Assembly (NCBI RefSeq): GCF_017592395.1 | Contig: NZ_JAGFOU010000033.1 | Location: 1-35,569 of the forward strand | DNA from: Actinomyces bowdenii | GTDB lineage: Bacteria > Actinomycetota > Actinomycetes > Actinomycetales > Actinomycetaceae | Direction of reading: 5' to 3' | DNA length: 35,569 nucleotides | Part shown: positions 5,038 to 28,073 of the stretch, one piece after another | How positions within the stretch are numbered: position 1 is the first letter of the stretch | Layout of the letters: every line of letters starts with the position of its first letter | The notes under the pieces: generated by a model | The model's input: the letters and a program-made list of their open reading frames with translations, nothing else | Databases searched by the model: none | What the model was told of the DNA's origin: nothing | Made by a program: the position numbers and the translations under genes

Positions 5038-5146
5038 GCGCCGGGCCCCCGTGATGTGGTAGGCCCGCGGTGTCGTGGCGCCGTGGTGGCCGACGGCGAA
5101 CAGCGCCACTGCGCGCATGGCGGGCGAGCACGGCATGCGCGCGGGC

Positions 5147-21561: not shown

Positions 21562-23051
21562 GCGCCGCAGGGGCCGGGCGGGGCGCCGGCCCGGGGGGCG
21601 TCGTTCCCGCGGGTGAGGCGCCGCTGGGCGCCCTGGTCTGCCCCGAGCCCGAGGAGCGCCCCGACCTGTGGCCCACCACGGCCCGGCGCGCCGAGGACGG
21701 CCAGCTGGAGATCGGCGGGCGCAGTGTCAGCGAGATCCTCGACCGGGCGCCCGCCCCCGTCTACGTCCTGGATGAGGCCGACTTCCGGGGCCGGGCCGCC
21801 ACCTGGGCCGCTGCCATGGCCGAGGAGTTCTGGGAGGGCTACGGGATGGCGGGGGGCGAGGCCTTCTACGCGGGCAAGGCCTTCCTGACCACCCGGGTGG
21901 CCCGCATCGCCCTGGAGGAGGGCCTGGGCATCGACACCGCCTCGCGCGGCGAGCTGGCCGTGGGCCTGGCCGCCGTCGAGCAGGTCGAGGGCCCCGGGGC
22001 CGCCATGAGGGCCCATCGCCTGGGCCTGCACGGCAATGGCAAGACCGAGGCCGAGGTGGGCCTGGCCGTCCACCACCGCCTGGGTCATATCGTCATCGAC
22101 TCCCCCGAGGAGATCGAGTACGCGGCCGCTGCCGTGCGCCGCTGGCGCGAGGAGGGGCACTACGGCCCCCAGGAGCGGGCGGGGCTCATGGTGCGCCTGA
22201 CCACCGGCATCCACGCGGGCGGGCACGAGTTCATCGCCACCGCCCACGAGGACCAGAAGTTCGGCCTGTCCATCCACACCGGGGCCGCCCGCGAGGCCAT
22301 CGACCGCATCGTGGCGGCCCCCGAGCTGGAGCTGCGGGGCCTGCACTCGCATATCGGCAGCCAGATCACCGACCCCGCGGGCTTCGAGGAGGCGGCCGCC
22401 GCCGTCCTGCGGCTGCGCCATGAGGTGGCCGTCGGCACCGGCTGGCTGTGCCCGGAGATCGACCTGGGCGGAGGGCTGGGCATCGCCTACACCGGTGCCG
22501 ACGACCCCGCCCCCTCACCGGCTGCCCTGGCCCGCGCCCTGGCGGCCGTGGTGCGCCGGATGTGCGCCGAGCTGGGCGACGAGGTGCCGCGCGTCTCGGT
22601 GGAGCCGGGGCGCTCCATCGCGGGGCCCTCCCAGGTCACCCTGTACCGGGTCACCGGCCTCAAGGAGATCGAGCTGGGGGAGGGGGCCAGCCGCCTCTAC
22701 GTCAGTGTCGAGGGCGGCATGAGCGACAACCTGCGCCCCGCCCTGTACGGCGCCGCCTACACCGCCCTGCTGGCGGGGCGGCGCTCGCAGTCCACCCGGG
22801 TGGCGCGCTGCCGGGTGGTGGGCAAGCACTGCGAGAGCGGGGACGTGGTGATCCGTGACGTGGACCTGCCGGCGGATCTGGTCGTGGGCGATGTGCTCGC
22901 GGTCCCGGCCACGGGCGCCTACGGGCGCTCCATGGGCATGAACTACAACCTGTTCACCCGCCCCGGTGTGGCCTGGGTGGCCGGGGGCGAGCAGGGCTGG
23001 GTGCTGCGCCCCGAGACCATCGAGGACCTCCTGCGCCTGGAGGGCGAGTAG
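21558..23051 (+). CDS. lysA: Diaminopimelate decarboxylase
   Basis: A 497-aa PLP enzyme making L-lysine from meso-diaminopimelate, the last step of lysine synthesis. An N-terminal extension precedes the fold III barrel. The PLP lysine lies in FYAGKAF (Lys-107), followed by [18 protein letters not shown] (about 262-270), [10 protein letters not shown] and VEPGRSIAG. The C-terminal domain carries CESGD and [10 protein letters not shown], the substrate-binding region. GTG 21558 overlaps the argS stop, so the two are coupled; argS-lysA is a conserved actinobacterial pair. Usually hom follows directly, but here 5.6 kb separate them. Confidence 0.97.
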
Positions 23052-23092
23052 GCTCGCAGCCCGACACCGGCGGGGCCTCGTCAGGCGCTCGT

Positions 23093-23113
23093 GCATGGCT
23101 TACCATGCGAGGC
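23093..23113 (+). promoter_or_regulatory. Inverted repeat and putative leaderless promoter of the ATPase module
   Basis: GCATGG (23093-23098) and CCATGC (23103-23108) form a perfect 6-bp inverted repeat with a 4-nt centre. Inside it TACCAT (23101-23106) is a TANNNT -10 box ending 7 nt before the ATG at 23114. A protein bound to the repeat would block this promoter. The module could also be read through from lysA, as no clear terminator follows lysA. Confidence 0.45.
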
Positions 23114-24406
23114 ATGGCTGACAGCGATCGCGCCTACCGCAAGGCGTTCTACGGGGCGGTGAACCTTCACCAGGGGAACCGGCTACTGTCGGAGGAAGAG
23201 GAGTTCAACCGCTATTACGTGCCGATCTACGACCAGCCTGACGGGCCTGCGGGCCCGGACTTCGTCGCCGAGATCGTCAACGCCATCGACTTCACCACGG
23301 GTGGCTCAGTGCAGTTGCTCTCCGGCTACCGTGGTGCGGGTAAGACCACCGAGCTCATCCGTCTCCACCGGACGATCGACCGGCAGGCCTATGTGCCGAT
23401 CTACTTCGACGTCGAGGACTACTTCAATACTGAGCTGCCCGTGGATGAGGGATCTTTCCTCATCGGCCTGGCTGCGGGCTTCGTTGCCAGTTGTGAGGAG
23501 GCCGAGGTTCCGAAGGACAACCTCATTCAGCGCTTGGGCGCTTTCCTCAAGAGGATCGATGTCTCCGCCGATGTGACAGTTGCTCTTTCACAGGGGCCGG
23601 TATCGGTCGGCCTTCGGGCGGCGCTGAGTGATGATGAGTCGTTCCGCGCCCAGGTGGCCAGGGCGCTGGTATCGAATCGCCGGCGCTTCAAGGAGGAGAT
23701 GCACTCCTTTTTCGAGGATGTGGTGGATGCGATGCCGGATGGGCGCACCCCGGTGTTCATTGTCGACTCCATCGATCACTTTCGTGGCCGTGCCTCGAGT
23801 TTCGATGAGGTCCGCGAGTCTGTTGAGTCGCTCTTCTCCACCTACGTGACCGAGCTGACTCTTCCTCGGATGCATGTGGTCTACACTGTGCCCATTTATG
23901 TCAAGCCTGTGGGATGGTCGGGCCAGATCTGGCCTGTCCTCAATGTCAAGGTGCGGCAGAAGGATGGTGAGGAGTGCCGGGAGGGGATCGCCCTCCTGCG
24001 GGACGTCCTGGCTCGGCGTGCGCCAGGAGAGGATCTCGATCGCCTTCTCGGTGATCATGCCGATCGGGTGATTCTTGCCTCCGGTGGCCTCTTCCGCGAC
24101 CTTTTCCGGCTTGTCTCCGCACTGCTGTTGAAGGAGGCCGCACTTCCTGTGGGTGATGTCGAGGTCGACGGGGTTGAGCGCCAGCAGCGCTCTCTCATGG
24201 CGACCGCACTCAGTGAGGAGCAGTGGGAGATCCTCTCGCAGGTCAAAGCAACCAAGCAGTTGCGGGTCCCGCGCGAGTTGTGGGCGGAGGCGTGGAGTCT
24301 TCAGGCACTCGGCGCGGTGCTGTGCTACCGCAACGGCAGTGTCGACTGGTATGGCGTCCATCCTCTCCTCGAGCCACTCGTTCCCGGTCCCTCCGAGAAC
24401 TCCTGA
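23114..24406 (+). CDS. P-loop ATPase of a two-gene module (uncharacterised, STAND/AAA-like)
   Basis: A 430-aa soluble ATPase with no transmembrane segment. Walker A is GYRGAGKTTEL (residues 71-81), preceded by DFVAEIVNAIDFTTGGSVQLLS. A segment YVPIYFDVEDYFNTELP follows, and Walker B is VFIVDSIDHF (about 214-223). A basic helical region with ESFRAQVARALVSNRRRF lies between. The C-terminus looks like a winged-helix-type tail: SEEQWEILSQVK..., then LCYRNGSVDWYGVHPLLEPLV. From memory, the same order (D-x-E-D-Y after Walker A, a terminal W-Y-x-VHPL) recurs in unstudied bacterial ATPases encoded beside TPR proteins. ATG 23114 is preferred because of the leaderless -10 box; an in-frame ATG at 23105 is the alternative. 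G+C is lower than in neighbours (38/60 at 23461-23520; 34/60 at 23881-23940), suggesting acquisition. Function is unknown; a sensing or defence role is inferred. Confidence 0.9.
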   Translation: MADSDRAYRKAFYGAVNLHQGNRLLSEEEEFNRYYVPIYDQPDGPAGPDFVAEIVNAIDFTTGGSVQLLSGYRGAGKTTELIRLHRTIDRQAYVPIYFDVEDYFNTELPVDEGSFLIGLAAGFVASCEEAEVPKDNLIQRLGAFLKRIDVSADVTVALSQGPVSVGLRAALSDDESFRAQVARALVSNRRRFKEEMHSFFEDVVDAMPDGRTPVFIVDSIDHFRGRASSFDEVRESVESLFSTYVTELTLPRMHVVYTVPIYVKPVGWSGQIWPVLNVKVRQKDGEECREGIALLRDVLARRAPGEDLDRLLGDHADRVILASGGLFRDLFRLVSALLLKEAALPVGDVEVDGVERQQRSLMATALSEEQWEILSQVKATKQLRVPRELWAEAWSLQALGAVLCYRNGSVDWYGVHPLLEPLVPGPSENS

Positions 24407-24416
24407 GGTGCCGTAG

Positions 24417-25793
24417 ATGACCGTGCTGCCTGGTGTCAGCATCGATGAGGCGTGGTCGGATCTGCGCCGCCATCTTGAATGGACGCCAGGGGAGGGCACG
24501 GTGGTGTTCATCGCGGTCGACTCGCTGTCCGATGCGCAGGATCTGAGGGAGCGGGCCGAGCTGTGGGCGCGACGTGCCAGGGTGCCGTGGAGCTGCGCTC
24601 CCCAGGAGTCATCGGTCGCCGCATGGCTGCGGACGCACCTGCCCACTCCCGGAGTGCTGTGGGTGGAGCTGCGGGAGGAGGGTGCTCGTCTCCCCGCCCT
24701 CCACGCCCTCAATGAGATGAGAAGCAGACTGGCGCATCCGGGTTCGGGCTGCCTTGTCCTCAGCGGCCCCGTCATCCTCCTGGAGCAGGCGCCTCGGGAG
24801 GCCATCGACCTATGGTCGATCCGCTCCTTTGCTCATGTGGTCTCCAGGCGGCGGGTGGCCACTGATCCATCGAGCCTCCATATCACCGATCGGATGGGGG
24901 ATGGGCAGGCCCCGCAAGCGCTCTCAGAGGGCCGCTACCGCTCCACGTGGCGCATCAGCCTCCCCGAGGAGATGCGGTCGCCAGAAGCCGCTGTGCTCAT
25001 GCGCCGTATCGAGCGGGTTCGGCAACTGCTGGGCAACGATCCGCTCGCCGCGCGCACGCTGCTCGAATCGGTCCCTGACCGGGAATCGGACCTGGCCCGG
25101 GTGCTCGAGGGGCTCGTGCGTGCGGAGATCGCGGGCCTGCTAGACGACGTTGTCAGCGTGGAGAGGCTCCTGCTGAGGGCCATGGAGGAGGCGGAGGCCT
25201 TCCCTCCTGCCTTCCGCTGGCAGGTGGACGACGCCGGGTGGGAGATCGCGACAGCATTCGGGGCCTTGGACGCGGCTATGCGTGCGGCGCAGGGGCGGAT
25301 GACCGTCTCGCGGGAGTTGGTGGGGGTGCTGGGGACGCCGGAGGCGCGGCGTGATTTGTCGGTGGCTCTGGACAATGTGGGTGGTGTGGCTCAGGCGCGG
25401 GGGTTGTGGCAGGAGGCTGGGGCGGCCTATGAGGAGTCCCTGGAGTTGCGCCGGGAGTTGGTGGGGGTGCTGGGGACGCCCCAGGCGCGGCGTGATCTGT
25501 CGGTCTCGCTGAATAAAGTCGGTGGTGTGGCTCAGGCGCGGGGGTTGTGGCAGGAGGCCGGGGCGGCCTATGAGGAGTCCCTGGAGTTGCGCCGGGAGCT
25601 GGCCCGCACCCAGGGGACACCGACGTCCTACAATGACCTGCTCCTCTCCCTGGATTCATCGATCCGTGTCGCTGAGGCTCAGGGCGAGTCGGAGCGGGCG
25701 GCCGCGCTCCGGGATGAGCGCGCTGAGGTGGAGGAGATGCTCGGCGCAGCGCCGGCTGAAGCATCGGAGAGCGGCCCCCTTGAGAACCGCTGA
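24417..25793 (+). CDS. Repeat (TPR-like) partner protein of the ATPase module
   Basis: A 458-aa soluble protein. An N-terminal alpha/beta region (about 1-160) alternates hydrophobic strands (GTVVFIAVDSL, GVLWVELREE, GCLVLSGPVILL) with helices and ends in ALHALNEMRSRLAHP and AIDLWSIRSFAHVV. No Walker motif is visible. A helical middle (about 180-298) follows, then 47-residue repeats at 299-345 and 346-392, with a diverged third from 393. Each repeat (RELVGVLGTP..RRDLSVSL..VGGVAQARGLWQEAGAAYEESLELR) reads as a long TPR-type helical hairpin. An acidic tail ends the protein. A GAGGTG ribosome site lies 6 nt before the ATG, and the gap from the ATPase stop is 10 nt, so they form one operon. Likely role: recognition or scaffold partner of the ATPase (inference). 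Confidence 0.88.
   Translation: MTVLPGVSIDEAWSDLRRHLEWTPGEGTVVFIAVDSLSDAQDLRERAELWARRARVPWSCAPQESSVAAWLRTHLPTPGVLWVELREEGARLPALHALNEMRSRLAHPGSGCLVLSGPVILLEQAPREAIDLWSIRSFAHVVSRRRVATDPSSLHITDRMGDGQAPQALSEGRYRSTWRISLPEEMRSPEAAVLMRRIERVRQLLGNDPLAARTLLESVPDRESDLARVLEGLVRAEIAGLLDDVVSVERLLLRAMEEAEAFPPAFRWQVDDAGWEIATAFGALDAAMRAAQGRMTVSRELVGVLGTPEARRDLSVALDNVGGVAQARGLWQEAGAAYEESLELRRELVGVLGTPQARRDLSVSLNKVGGVAQARGLWQEAGAAYEESLELRRELARTQGTPTSYNDLLLSLDSSIRVAEAQGESERAAALRDERAEVEEMLGAAPAEASESGPLENR
25312..25593 (+). repeat. Two tandem 141-bp repeats within the TPR-like gene
   Basis: Two direct copies of a 141-bp unit (25312-25452 and 25453-25593) differ at about 11 positions by eye; the last 70 or so bases differ at only one. 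Each encodes one 47-aa repeat in frame. A third unit from 25594 begins similarly but is strongly diverged. The near identity points to recent duplication or gene conversion. Confidence 0.95.
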
Positions 25794-26162
25794 GACCGTT
25801 GAGCCCTCCCTGAGGCGCTGCCGGGGCGCCGCGTGAGGCGCGGGCCCGGCCTCCGGTCGGCGGATGCACAGGTCATGAGGCTCCGGGCAGGTCCGTGCGC
25901 GGTCGAGTTCTTCTGGCGTCGGTACGATCCATCAACCCCAGAAACCTGGGAGTTCGCAGGGAAACTTCCTCGGCGTCGGCTATGCGACTGTGAGATATAG
26001 CCCGTCTGGCTGATCTGCTATGCCGGACGTGCCGTTTGTGACAGAGTGGTCACGAAGGTCACGGAGCGATAGGGAATAGCCGCCGTCCTGGGACGTGCGG
26101 TGCTCCGTGGATGGGACCAGCCCCGCCTTCGACATCGACGACGTCCAGAACTCGGAGATCCC
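25794..26162. other. Intergenic region before the adhesin gene
   Basis: About 370 bp with no convincing gene and visibly lower G+C than the core. It should hold the end of the ATPase/TPR transcript and the adhesin promoter. A short GGCGC/GCGCC pairing lies just after the TPR gene, weak as a terminator. The second half holds GTGAC/GGTCAC repeats, described separately. No strong -35/-10 pair could be fixed. Confidence 0.5.
26038..26062 (+). promoter_or_regulatory. GTGAC/GTCAC repeat cluster upstream of the adhesin gene
   Basis: GTGAC (26038-26042) and GTCAC (26049-26053) form an inverted repeat with a 6-nt centre. GGTCAC then recurs 9 bp later (26048-26053 and 26057-26062). Such mixed inverted and direct repeats about 100 bp before a surface-protein gene suggest a regulator site. 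The spacing does not fit the Crp consensus (8 rather than 6 nt between TGTGA and TCAC). Confidence 0.35.
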
Positions 26163-27941
26163 ATGAACACAGTGCCAACGGGCGCCGTGTCTCGTCCGGC
26201 CCTCACCCGAGGGGCTGCGGCGGGACTGGCTGCCCTCCTCACTCTGCTCCTGGCCGCACTCACCCCCCTGGCCTCGACGGCTCATGCCGCCGAGAACCCG
26301 GGCATCACCGTCACCAACATGTCGCTCACGCGCGTCGACGGCAACAACGCGGACCAGGAGGGCAACCTCAACTACTACGACAACGCCCGTCTGAGCTTCG
26401 ACTGGGATGCCGGCGGGACCACCCTCAAGCCCGGCGACTCCTTCACCATCAACCTGGGCACCTACTTCGAGAACCTCCAGGTCCCCTCCAGCCTGCCCAT
26501 GACGGTGGACCACAACGGCACTGACACGCAGGTCGGCACCTGCGATCTGACCGCCAAGGAGATCACCTGCACCTTCAACGACAAGGTCGCCGAGCTGCAG
26601 CAGGCCGGCTTCCACAACTTCAAGGGCCACGGCTCGGCGCTGCTGGCCATCACCCAGACCACCACCTCGCAGACCGCTGACATCACCGCCAACGGCACCA
26701 CCCAGGTGGACCTGCCCGGCCAGGGCGGCATCGGCGGCCCCGAGAGCTCCCCGTGGGAGCTGCACAAGTGGTCCTCGAGCTTCTACAACAACTACTCCGA
26801 GCTGACCTGGGGGGTGAACTTCGGAGCCAATGAGACCACCGGGAGCAAGCTGGGCACCACCTTCGACGGCAGCCGTCAGACCATCACCTTCACCGACACC
26901 CTCGGCGAGGGGATGAGCTTCAACCAGGACCTCACCCGGTGGGTGCTCAACCTGCGCCCCGACGGCCAGCAGAGCGTGAGGCTGACCGACGCCTCCGGTG
27001 CCGACGCCACCACCGAGCACGGCGACTTCGACATCAAGGCCTCCGTGAGCGGCGACGGGCGCACCGCCACCCTGGAGGTCACCGGCCCCTTCCAGGCCGG
27101 CACCAACTTCACCATGGAGTACCCGGTGGCCTTCGCGGGCGGCCAGGCCACTCCCGGCGGCACCTACAGCAACACCGTGACGATGAACGGCACCGACCTG
27201 TCCAGCACACGGCAGCAGACCTACGTGCAGTACTTCGACATCAATGTCGAGATGGAGCGCGGCTTCGGCTCCTTCGAGGTCGCCAAGAGCGTCGAGGGCG
27301 ACTCCGCCGGTGCGACGCAGGGCGCCTCCTTCGTCGTCGACGTCGCCTACGAGCTGCCCGCCGCGGTGAGCTCCTACCCGGGCTGGACCGCCCCCGAGGG
27401 GCAGAAGCCCCAGGGCGAGGGCCGCACCGGCACCACCAGCCTGACGGTCAAGGCCGGAGAGGCCGCCCAGTTCAACGGCACCTTCCCCGTGGGCACCAAG
27501 GTCACCCTCAGCGAGGACACCTCCAAGGCCACGGCCCCCGAGGGAGCCTCCTGGAAGGAGCCGGTGTTCACCATCGACGGCCAGCAGACCTCCACCTTCA
27601 CCATCGGTGACCAGGTGCGCACCAAGGTCGAGCTGACCAACACCGTCGTCTCCGGGCCGCCCGCCGCCCCGCCGACGCCGAGCACCCCGGCGACCCCGCC
27701 GGCGACGAGCACCCCCGGCGCCCCGGACGCCCCGCAGACCCCGGGGGCGCCCAGCGCCCCGGCCACCCCGGACCAGCCGGGCGCGCCCTCGACCCCCACC
27801 GCCGTGCCGCCCAACGGCGGCACCCCCGGTGGTCCGCCCACCCTGGCCCGCACCGGTGCCAACGCCGCAGCACTGCTCGTGCTGGCCGGCCTGGGCATGA
27901 GCGGAGGCGCCTACCTGCTGGCCCGCCGTCGCAGCTCCTGA
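26163..27941 (+). CDS. LARTG-anchored surface adhesin with SdrC/Cna-like Ig domains
   Basis: A 592-aa cell-wall protein. A signal peptide (residues 1-42, cleavage after AHA) is followed by a large beta-rich region (about 45-360). Its pattern (NYYDNARLSFDWDAGGTTLKPGDSFTINL, later ITFTDTLGEGMSF) resembles the N2-N3 adhesin folds of MSCRAMM proteins. A smaller Ig/Cna-like domain follows (about 366-497), with a Lys in FEVAKSV (about 374) and an Asn in ELTNTV (493), placed as for an intramolecular isopeptide bond. A Pro/Ala/Thr-rich stalk (about 498-560) leads to the sorting signal LARTG (561-565), a hydrophobic helix and RRRSS. A sortase would anchor it; none is encoded nearby. The ATG has GGAG 5 nt upstream. 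Probable role: host or partner-cell attachment. Confidence 0.9.
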   Translation: MNTVPTGAVSRPALTRGAAAGLAALLTLLLAALTPLASTAHAAENPGITVTNMSLTRVDGNNADQEGNLNYYDNARLSFDWDAGGTTLKPGDSFTINLGTYFENLQVPSSLPMTVDHNGTDTQVGTCDLTAKEITCTFNDKVAELQQAGFHNFKGHGSALLAITQTTTSQTADITANGTTQVDLPGQGGIGGPESSPWELHKWSSSFYNNYSELTWGVNFGANETTGSKLGTTFDGSRQTITFTDTLGEGMSFNQDLTRWVLNLRPDGQQSVRLTDASGADATTEHGDFDIKASVSGDGRTATLEVTGPFQAGTNFTMEYPVAFAGGQATPGGTYSNTVTMNGTDLSSTRQQTYVQYFDINVEMERGFGSFEVAKSVEGDSAGATQGASFVVDVAYELPAAVSSYPGWTAPEGQKPQGEGRTGTTSLTVKAGEAAQFNGTFPVGTKVTLSEDTSKATAPEGASWKEPVFTIDGQQTSTFTIGDQVRTKVELTNTVVSGPPAAPPTPSTPATPPATSTPGAPDAPQTPGAPSAPATPDQPGAPSTPTAVPPNGGTPGGPPTLARTGANAAALLVLAGLGMSGGAYLLARRRSS

Positions 27942-28036
27942 CTCGCGGAGCCTGAGAGGCGCCGCACCGGCGGCGCACTGAGGGCGGGTGACGGGAGCTG
28001 ACCCGCCGGCCGATCCTCAGATGCCCGGCGGTGCCC

Positions 28037-28073
28037 CCGGTGGCCCGTCCCGATCATCGGGGCGGGCCACCGG
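28037..28073. terminator. Strong hairpin 1 after the adhesin gene
   Basis: A near-perfect 18-bp inverted repeat with a very short centre; the only irregular pair is a G-T wobble. It lies 96 bp after the adhesin stop and could terminate its transcript. There is no T-tract. Confidence 0.55.

Follow-up and report, generated by a model that had tools for sequence, protein, structure and literature searches.

What does the pair of adjacent genes found beside lysA in Actinomyces bowdenii do? The initial annotation of the window (the whole stretch of 35,569 nucleotides analysed here, from contig NZ_JAGFOU010000033.1) had read the pair as a P-loop ATPase coupled by 10 nt to a TPR-type repeat protein, and had proposed a conflict or defence module of foreign origin. 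Both open reading frames and the 10-nt stop-to-start gap are as described there, and each gene is present as a single copy in the genome (Table 1). Gene 1 and gene 2 are a true pair, a coupled system which co-occurs across phyla; the parts of this real, conserved two-gene system, a STAND-like ATPase and TPR, are ordinary, and their split and apparently effector-free arrangement is unusual. The function that we tentatively prefer, at a little under an even chance, is that of a split NLR-like (STAND) switch. The repeats would serve as the sensor for a ligand, likely an invader protein, and the change of state would take place in the ATPase. This reading rests on gene order and co-occurrence, intact motifs, the predicted fold, near-identical repeats and the joint absence of the two genes from the nearest relative, G152.

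Table 1. Features of the two-gene locus, in nucleotide positions of the window.
Feature	Position	Strand	Basis or remark
Presence/absence unit, two genes and no third, missing in nearest relative G152	23046..25809	.	blastn and aligned junctions
TACCAT, -10-like hexamer, possible leaderless promoter	23101..23106	+	TANNNT in 10/10 aligned Actinomyces upstream regions, by eye
Gene 1, STAND/ORC-clade AAA-type ATPase (predicted fold) with C-terminal winged helix	23105..24406	+	433 aa ORF
Walker A, GYRGAGKTT, residues 74-82	23324..23350	+	G74, G77, G79, K80 and T82 invariant in 50 sequences
Walker B, VFIVD, residues 217-221	23753..23767	+	D221 invariant in 50 sequences
Gene 2, partner protein: N-terminal alpha/beta domain, helical linker and TPR array	24417..25793	+	458 aa ORF, Pfam, model
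Partner domain, residues 1-145; five strands alternating with helices (predicted); possibly an eroded P-loop	24417..24851	+	
Arg102, candidate trans-acting residue	24720..24722	+	sole residue invariant among 40 and 49 aligned partners (two alignments)
Tandem 141-bp (47-residue) TPR units, 2.1 copies	25311..25602	+	TRF, 92% matches

The translation of gene 1 contains the Walker A and Walker B motifs and the C-terminal tail WYGVHPLLEPL exactly as first written. In its structure model a P-loop core, a helical lid and a winged helix are predicted in the STAND/ORC arrangement, and by motif and predicted fold the product is a STAND/ORC-type ATPase, in keeping with the STAND/AAA logic suggested at the outset. 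Its Pfam scores lie below every curated STAND/NACHT cut-off (AAA_16, 22.7 versus 32.6 bits; NACHT, 14 versus 26.7; nSTAND5, 12.9 versus 34), and the chain is without sensor repeats, which sit on the separate gene 2. The best structural matches of the model are the DNA-binding AAA+ proteins TnsC and ORC/Cdc6, which speaks for an ordinary regulatory or scaffolding pair in which an ORC/TnsC-like ATPase uses its winged helix to bind DNA or another platform and a client is brought in by the TPR partner, with no role in conflict. We regard this alternative as unlikely, though it is the most serious of those considered here. Unlike the situation with TnsC and ORC/Cdc6, no transposition or replication genes were seen beside the pair, and identity to these proteins is 9-16% among the matches listed.

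The second protein was modelled with a pLDDT of 77.0 and a pTM of 0.58, and the model predicts the alpha/beta fold that had been proposed for its N-terminus. The TPR-type repeats are real: TPR_12 (E=2e-11) and TPR_10 are the only families matched above the Pfam cut-off in the window protein, and the tandem units were recovered by TRF. Forty-nine aligned gene-2 proteins match 66 Pfam families, of which the 25 listed are mostly TPR or TPR-like, and neither among these 25 nor among those listed for the window protein was there a family matching the N-terminal domain, which had been left unassigned from the start. In the Foldseek comparison the top match of the partner is the STAND-TPR protein 6mfv, with a TMq of only 0.28; the VIA rows are filled by TPR proteins, so that the N-terminal domain was hardly probed by that comparison. 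Alignment of the partner domain by hhalign with the ATPase and with nSTAND1 gave no similarity, which counts against a split switch, although the positive control was likewise negative. The domain is possibly a P-loop domain with an eroded NTP site. Its Arg102 falls within an N-x-x-R motif, in a helical stretch preceding strand 112-117.

An iterated profile seeded with a Scytonema partner and run on 83 sequences connects this domain to Actinomyces. The first protein of that genus to be found, from A. howellii, was matched at E=3.1e-5 by a profile then free of Actinomyces sequences; with the A. howellii sequence added the window protein was matched at E=1.1e-6, and in the following round, with the window protein itself already in the profile, at E=9.3e-17.

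Paired homologues had been suggested as a test of the proposal, and they are abundant. A contig scan with two short patterns yielded at least 583 stretches, at least 428 of them confirmed, from which the best 80 loci were kept (by title, 78 from cyanobacteria and two from proteobacterial MAGs). The partner-domain ORF starts no more than 500 nt downstream of the ATPase in 58 of these best 80 of at least 428 loci. Of the 22 remaining loci, six lie within 721 nt of the end of their contig and eight have the partner further off or on the opposite strand; in the last eight it was not found despite 8 kb of downstream sequence, which counts against a split switch. ATPase and partner overlap by 4 nt in 23 of 62 pairs (the 58 loci of the contig scan plus four of five plasmid loci). 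Twenty-five whole genomes were reached through 26 of the best 80 loci, and hence all bear the ATPase. After the merging of fragments (126 to 124 partner domains and 132 to 122 ATPases), 94 of the 124 partner domains in these genomes follow an ATPase (within 2.5 kb on the same strand, with a median of 59 nt between matches), and 89 of the 107 full-length ATPases have a partner. No conserved third gene was found in 85 loci beyond one mixed TPR/WD40 cluster (76 loci), which could hide a third repeat gene; the next cluster was present in 6 of 85.

Seven of the 30 unpaired partner domains, picked for their short frames, were inspected. All seven are free-standing proteins of 166-171 residues, so the partner domain also has an apparently ATPase-free life in cyanobacteria, which counts against a split switch; a shared neighbour adjoins five of the seven, which is a further point for a regulatory or scaffolding pair.

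The partners differ in form. The Actinomyces protein is of the short TPR type, and of ten whole partners nine are listed with TPR families, six with nSTAND1 and one with WD40. Among the C-terminal pieces of the long partners (50 from 62 partners, the 12 under 560 residues having been left out), nSTAND1 was found in 41 and WD40 in 33; the 25 families listed, of the 158 matched by these pieces, are nSTAND1, AAA_16 and beta propellers. Such long partners resemble STAND sensors, which argues against a purely regulatory pair and again agrees with the STAND logic first proposed. In the window's own genome there is no nSTAND1 match above the cut-off, only seven weak sub-threshold ones; in the control search 13 of 14 genomes were matched, three of them over the cut-off.

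Within the phylum the ATPase is rare, being present in 2 of 396 sampled genomes, one of which is the window's own. In the second (G291) the ATPase occurs at three loci, at one of which it is split between two frames; at two of the three a partner domain with a weak match lies alongside (E=1.9e-6 and 4.7e-6). Further relatives of gene 1 exist as protein entries at 40-49% identity, some named as other actinobacteria, and a representative entry 99% identical to gene 1 covers 14 member sequences. Plasmid matches comprise eight records, seven cyanobacterial and one acidobacterial, and no match in viral contigs was confirmed. Carriage in Actinomyces as phage or plasmid cargo was rejected, since gene 1 is unmatched in 50,697 phage records and the plasmid matches are non-actinobacterial.

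In a sample of the family gene 1 was matched in 10 of 200 genomes (two as fragments), all from its own genus; in the genus, gene 1 or its remains occur in 13 of 49 genomes, intact in ten and broken in three (G172, G174 and G202). lysA adjoins gene 1 or its remains in all 13 carriers, and in ten of them the same contig runs on to hom, which bounds the interval; in G156, G160 and G200 the contig stops in or at the array and hom lies on another contig. A recent foreign island was rejected on account of this constant position, and the likely foreign origin initially proposed, if taken as recent, is not supported, the lower third-position G+C of the pair relative to neighbouring core genes being common to the carriers listed. 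In the window these values are 0.75 for gene 1 and 0.80 for gene 2, as against 0.96 for lysA. The drop in G+C noted at first is real over the pair (62.1, 66.0 and 69.2% over 23-26 kb versus 74.2% in the preceding kilobase) but not confined to it, since values are likewise low at 26-27 kb (66.1%) and 31-32 kb (67.0%). Trees of the ATPase and of core genes disagree: for 10 taxa the core data reject the ATPase tree (AU 3e-6) and the ATPase data reject the core tree at 0.025 (argS of G124 and thrB of G197, too short, were entered as gaps in the core-gene tree). Judged from these sequences, some exchange of the ATPase inside the genus is therefore likely.

The nearest relative (G152, 95% identical in lysA) is without exactly the 2.76-kb stretch that holds both genes; in blastn, window positions 21593-23045 (94.2%) and 25810-28070 (89.9%) abut at position 5042 of its contig L142. 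This clean absence, the patchy distribution in 13 of 49 genomes and the remnants in three species would be unusual for a housekeeping regulator. A. slackii (G062) has kept an open gene 1, with its partner unmatched; this argues against strict dependence of the one gene on the other and counts against a split switch. The three remnants are also what would be expected if the pair were a selfish or decaying relic that no longer has a function in this genome, a reading that we consider very improbable: both frames in the window are open with their motifs kept, and the 14 member sequences behind the 99%-identical representative of gene 1 likewise speak against it.

The repeat array varies in size. 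With a unit of 47 residues, the window array has three units including a degenerate terminal one (two full), as against 7 to 10, terminal ones counted, in five relatives whose assemblies consist of one or two contigs. Decay or a collapsed assembly would explain the short array if the pair were a leftover; the window comes from a 54-contig draft, and its array may simply have collapsed in assembly. The ending of three other contigs at or inside the array, mentioned above, fits the same explanation, as does the near-identical entry nearest to the window (P0002, 411 aa), which is shorter by one unit and contains a hybrid unit. Within genes, repeat DNA identity is 0.75-0.82 in four of six, versus 0.56-0.64 between species. 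Two genes count against a split switch here, that of G205 (0.64 within versus 0.56-0.62 between species) and that of the window (0.64, from three units of which the last is degenerate, versus 0.56-0.60). Among the 120 homologues listed out of 135, 137 pairs share at least 97% identity over the N-terminal part. Length is equal in 62 of these pairs; in 49 the difference is a non-zero multiple of 47 residues, and in 26 it is of another size. Many homologue entries seem to be metagenome-derived, so that repeat collapse in assembly can mimic differences in repeat number.

Self-similar arrays of this kind would also be out of the ordinary in a housekeeping regulator. TPR units that are nearly identical and vary in number resemble the arrays of fungal NLRs, and the variable repeats might read strain identity, not phage, in a kin/non-kin discrimination system akin to fungal heterokaryon incompatibility. 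Kin discrimination has been raised, in the accessible text of PMC10907252, as an alternative for the diversified conflict systems of multicellular bacteria. It would need cell contact or delivery of a ligand, to neither of which anything at this locus points, and we hold it to be improbable for this pair.

The genomic surroundings give no indication of a defence island. Where one contig carries both lysA and hom, as in 45 genomes (G195 was omitted for its poor lysA match), the interval between them measures 237 bp to 14.9 kb. In the genomes listed, the ORFs read there specify ABC exporters, an LPXTG protein, an MFS exporter and, in some, VapBC-like genes; known defence neighbours are absent from the intervals listed. 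A defence island was rejected, the contents being mostly transporters and a surface protein, neighbours which fit a regulatory or scaffolding pair. With PADLOC the window ATPase had no match at E 0.01 and the partner matched only a generic TPR defence model (E=2.9e-5); above E 0.01 the window proteins matched mad8 (0.032) and pAgo_I (0.045). As had been remarked, no effector domain is visible in either protein, nor was one seen in the listed families of relatives. This result, like the lack of known defence neighbours in the intervals listed and of gene 1 matches among phage records or confirmed ones in viral contigs, speaks against the split switch. A defence role for the pair is neither demonstrated nor excluded; it is suggested by analogy with STAND systems together with patchy, repeat-variable behaviour, and not by the neighbours.

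If the pair is a split STAND switch, the N-terminal domain of the partner would dock onto the ATPase, perhaps presenting the invariant Arg102 to its active site. Ligand bound by the TPR array would then free the ATPase for nucleotide exchange and assembly, and the ATP-bound assembly would be the signal. Output would come from the assembly itself or from an unlinked host protein, because no effector is seen with the pair, and the biological role would be conflict, as phage defence or kin/non-kin discrimination. A bolder form of this proposal, which we consider rather unlikely as a whole, is that of an unnamed phylum-crossing split STAND switch in which a docking domain lacking an NTP site gives a trans-acting arginine, the array changes in recombination steps of 47 residues, and the Actinomyces pair is a complete, effector-free two-gene immune unit. 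If the split switch is correct, it would be a minimal NLR-type switch made of two proteins, whose sensing and ATP-switching functions could be taken apart and reconstituted piecewise. An unnamed domain that many filamentous cyanobacteria possess would also be linked to an oral actinobacterium that is tractable, and the testable question would arise of how such a switch acts without an adjacent effector gene.

NLR-like STAND defence proteins (Avs, bacterial NACHT and nSTAND1-WD40 proteins) combine a STAND ATPase with TPR or WD40 sensor repeats. Unlike in these, the Actinomyces ATPase and repeats are on separate chains, and no N-terminal effector domain was seen. The closest arrangement is the nSTAND2 system, which the accessible text of PMC8195603 describes as a mobile two-gene counter-invader operon with one active STAND NTPase and a second, NTP-site-eroded chain most commonly fused to GT4 or HEPN effectors. 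The present pair shares with it the two adjacent genes and the single active STAND-type NTPase. It differs in that the second chain, whose N-terminal domain may or may not be an inactive STAND domain, carries TPR (in relatives also nSTAND1 and WD40); no GT4 or HEPN effector was found in the window protein or among the 25 families listed, of 158, for the C-terminal pieces of 50 relatives. The iSTAND/iSTAND2 MoxR-vWA ternary systems, reported as enriched in multicellular bacteria, pair an NTPase with a component proposed to sense and coordinate (PMC7159879 and PMC8195603, accessible text); unlike them, the pair consists of two genes and not three, and in 85 loci neither MoxR nor vWA turned up as a conserved neighbour.

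Weaker likenesses were found among curated families. The P-loop domain resembles that of NCBIfam NF047389 (P-loop ATPase Sll1717 family), matched by 19 of 50 ATPases at E 0.01 and by the window ATPase at E=0.0025, whose 17 bits are far under the family cut-off of 75. PADLOC PDC-S20 and mad8 and the NCBIfam DS41_1 anti-phage protein are weakly matched (E 0.01) by 45, 32 and 14 of the 50 ATPases, whereas the window ATPase matches none of them at that threshold; a shared P-loop may be all that these have in common. The pair is not described in the accessible portions of PMC8195603, PMC7159879, PMC10907252, PMC12839542 and PMC13092281, and no description was found in the literature searched, which leaves out most subscription journals. 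A 'Npun2340/2341 family', named after Leipe 2004 in the accessible text of PMC8195603, may be related to it.

Upstream of gene 1, a sigma-70 scan requiring a -35 element found no promoter, and a palindrome at 23093-23108 was not found in the upstream regions of the relatives scanned. The true start of gene 1 is probably at 23114 (M4), because the ORFs of five of nine relatives open at the residue matching M4; those of the other four open further upstream. The TANNNT hexamer, identified by eye, lies a short way upstream of the gene in all ten aligned loci, which suggests that the gene-1 message may be leaderless.

In filamentous cyanobacteria the partner domain, which forms the N-terminus of the gene 2 product, also occurs as a free-standing protein of 166–170 residues. 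In all five genomes represented in the table the same common neighbour, recognized by eye, adjoins the gene, which is apparently a gene of its own.

The variable lysA–hom interval is common to the gene pair and an LPXTG-anchored surface protein, and G+C is also low in the 5' part of the surface-protein gene. None of the relatives' upstream regions that were scanned showed the palindrome that lies around the likely start of gene 1. Some of the ten TPR units in the array of L047, a stretch of a relative's DNA, are identical to one another, and the contigs of the draft genomes G156, G160 and G200 stop at or within this array.

Coordinates of additional features in the window and in relatives' DNA (L numbers)
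Feature	Location	Remarks
VapBC-like toxin-antitoxin ORFs	L058 4545-5293	lysA-hom interval of relative G172; by eye
VapBC-like toxin-antitoxin ORFs	L059 824-1225	hom side in G200; by eye
Free-standing partner-domain protein	L163 3739-4242	filamentous cyanobacteria
Free-standing partner-domain protein	L165 4101-4613	filamentous cyanobacteria
Free-standing partner-domain protein	L166 4206-4706	filamentous cyanobacteria
Free-standing partner-domain protein	L167 3931-4434	filamentous cyanobacteria
Free-standing partner-domain protein	L168 3795-4295	filamentous cyanobacteria
LPXTG-anchored surface protein	window 26100-27941	domains DUF7926, DUF5979, Big_8
Short perfect palindrome	window 23093-23108	GCATGG-CTTA-CCATGC
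Array of ten TPR units	L047 4500-6824
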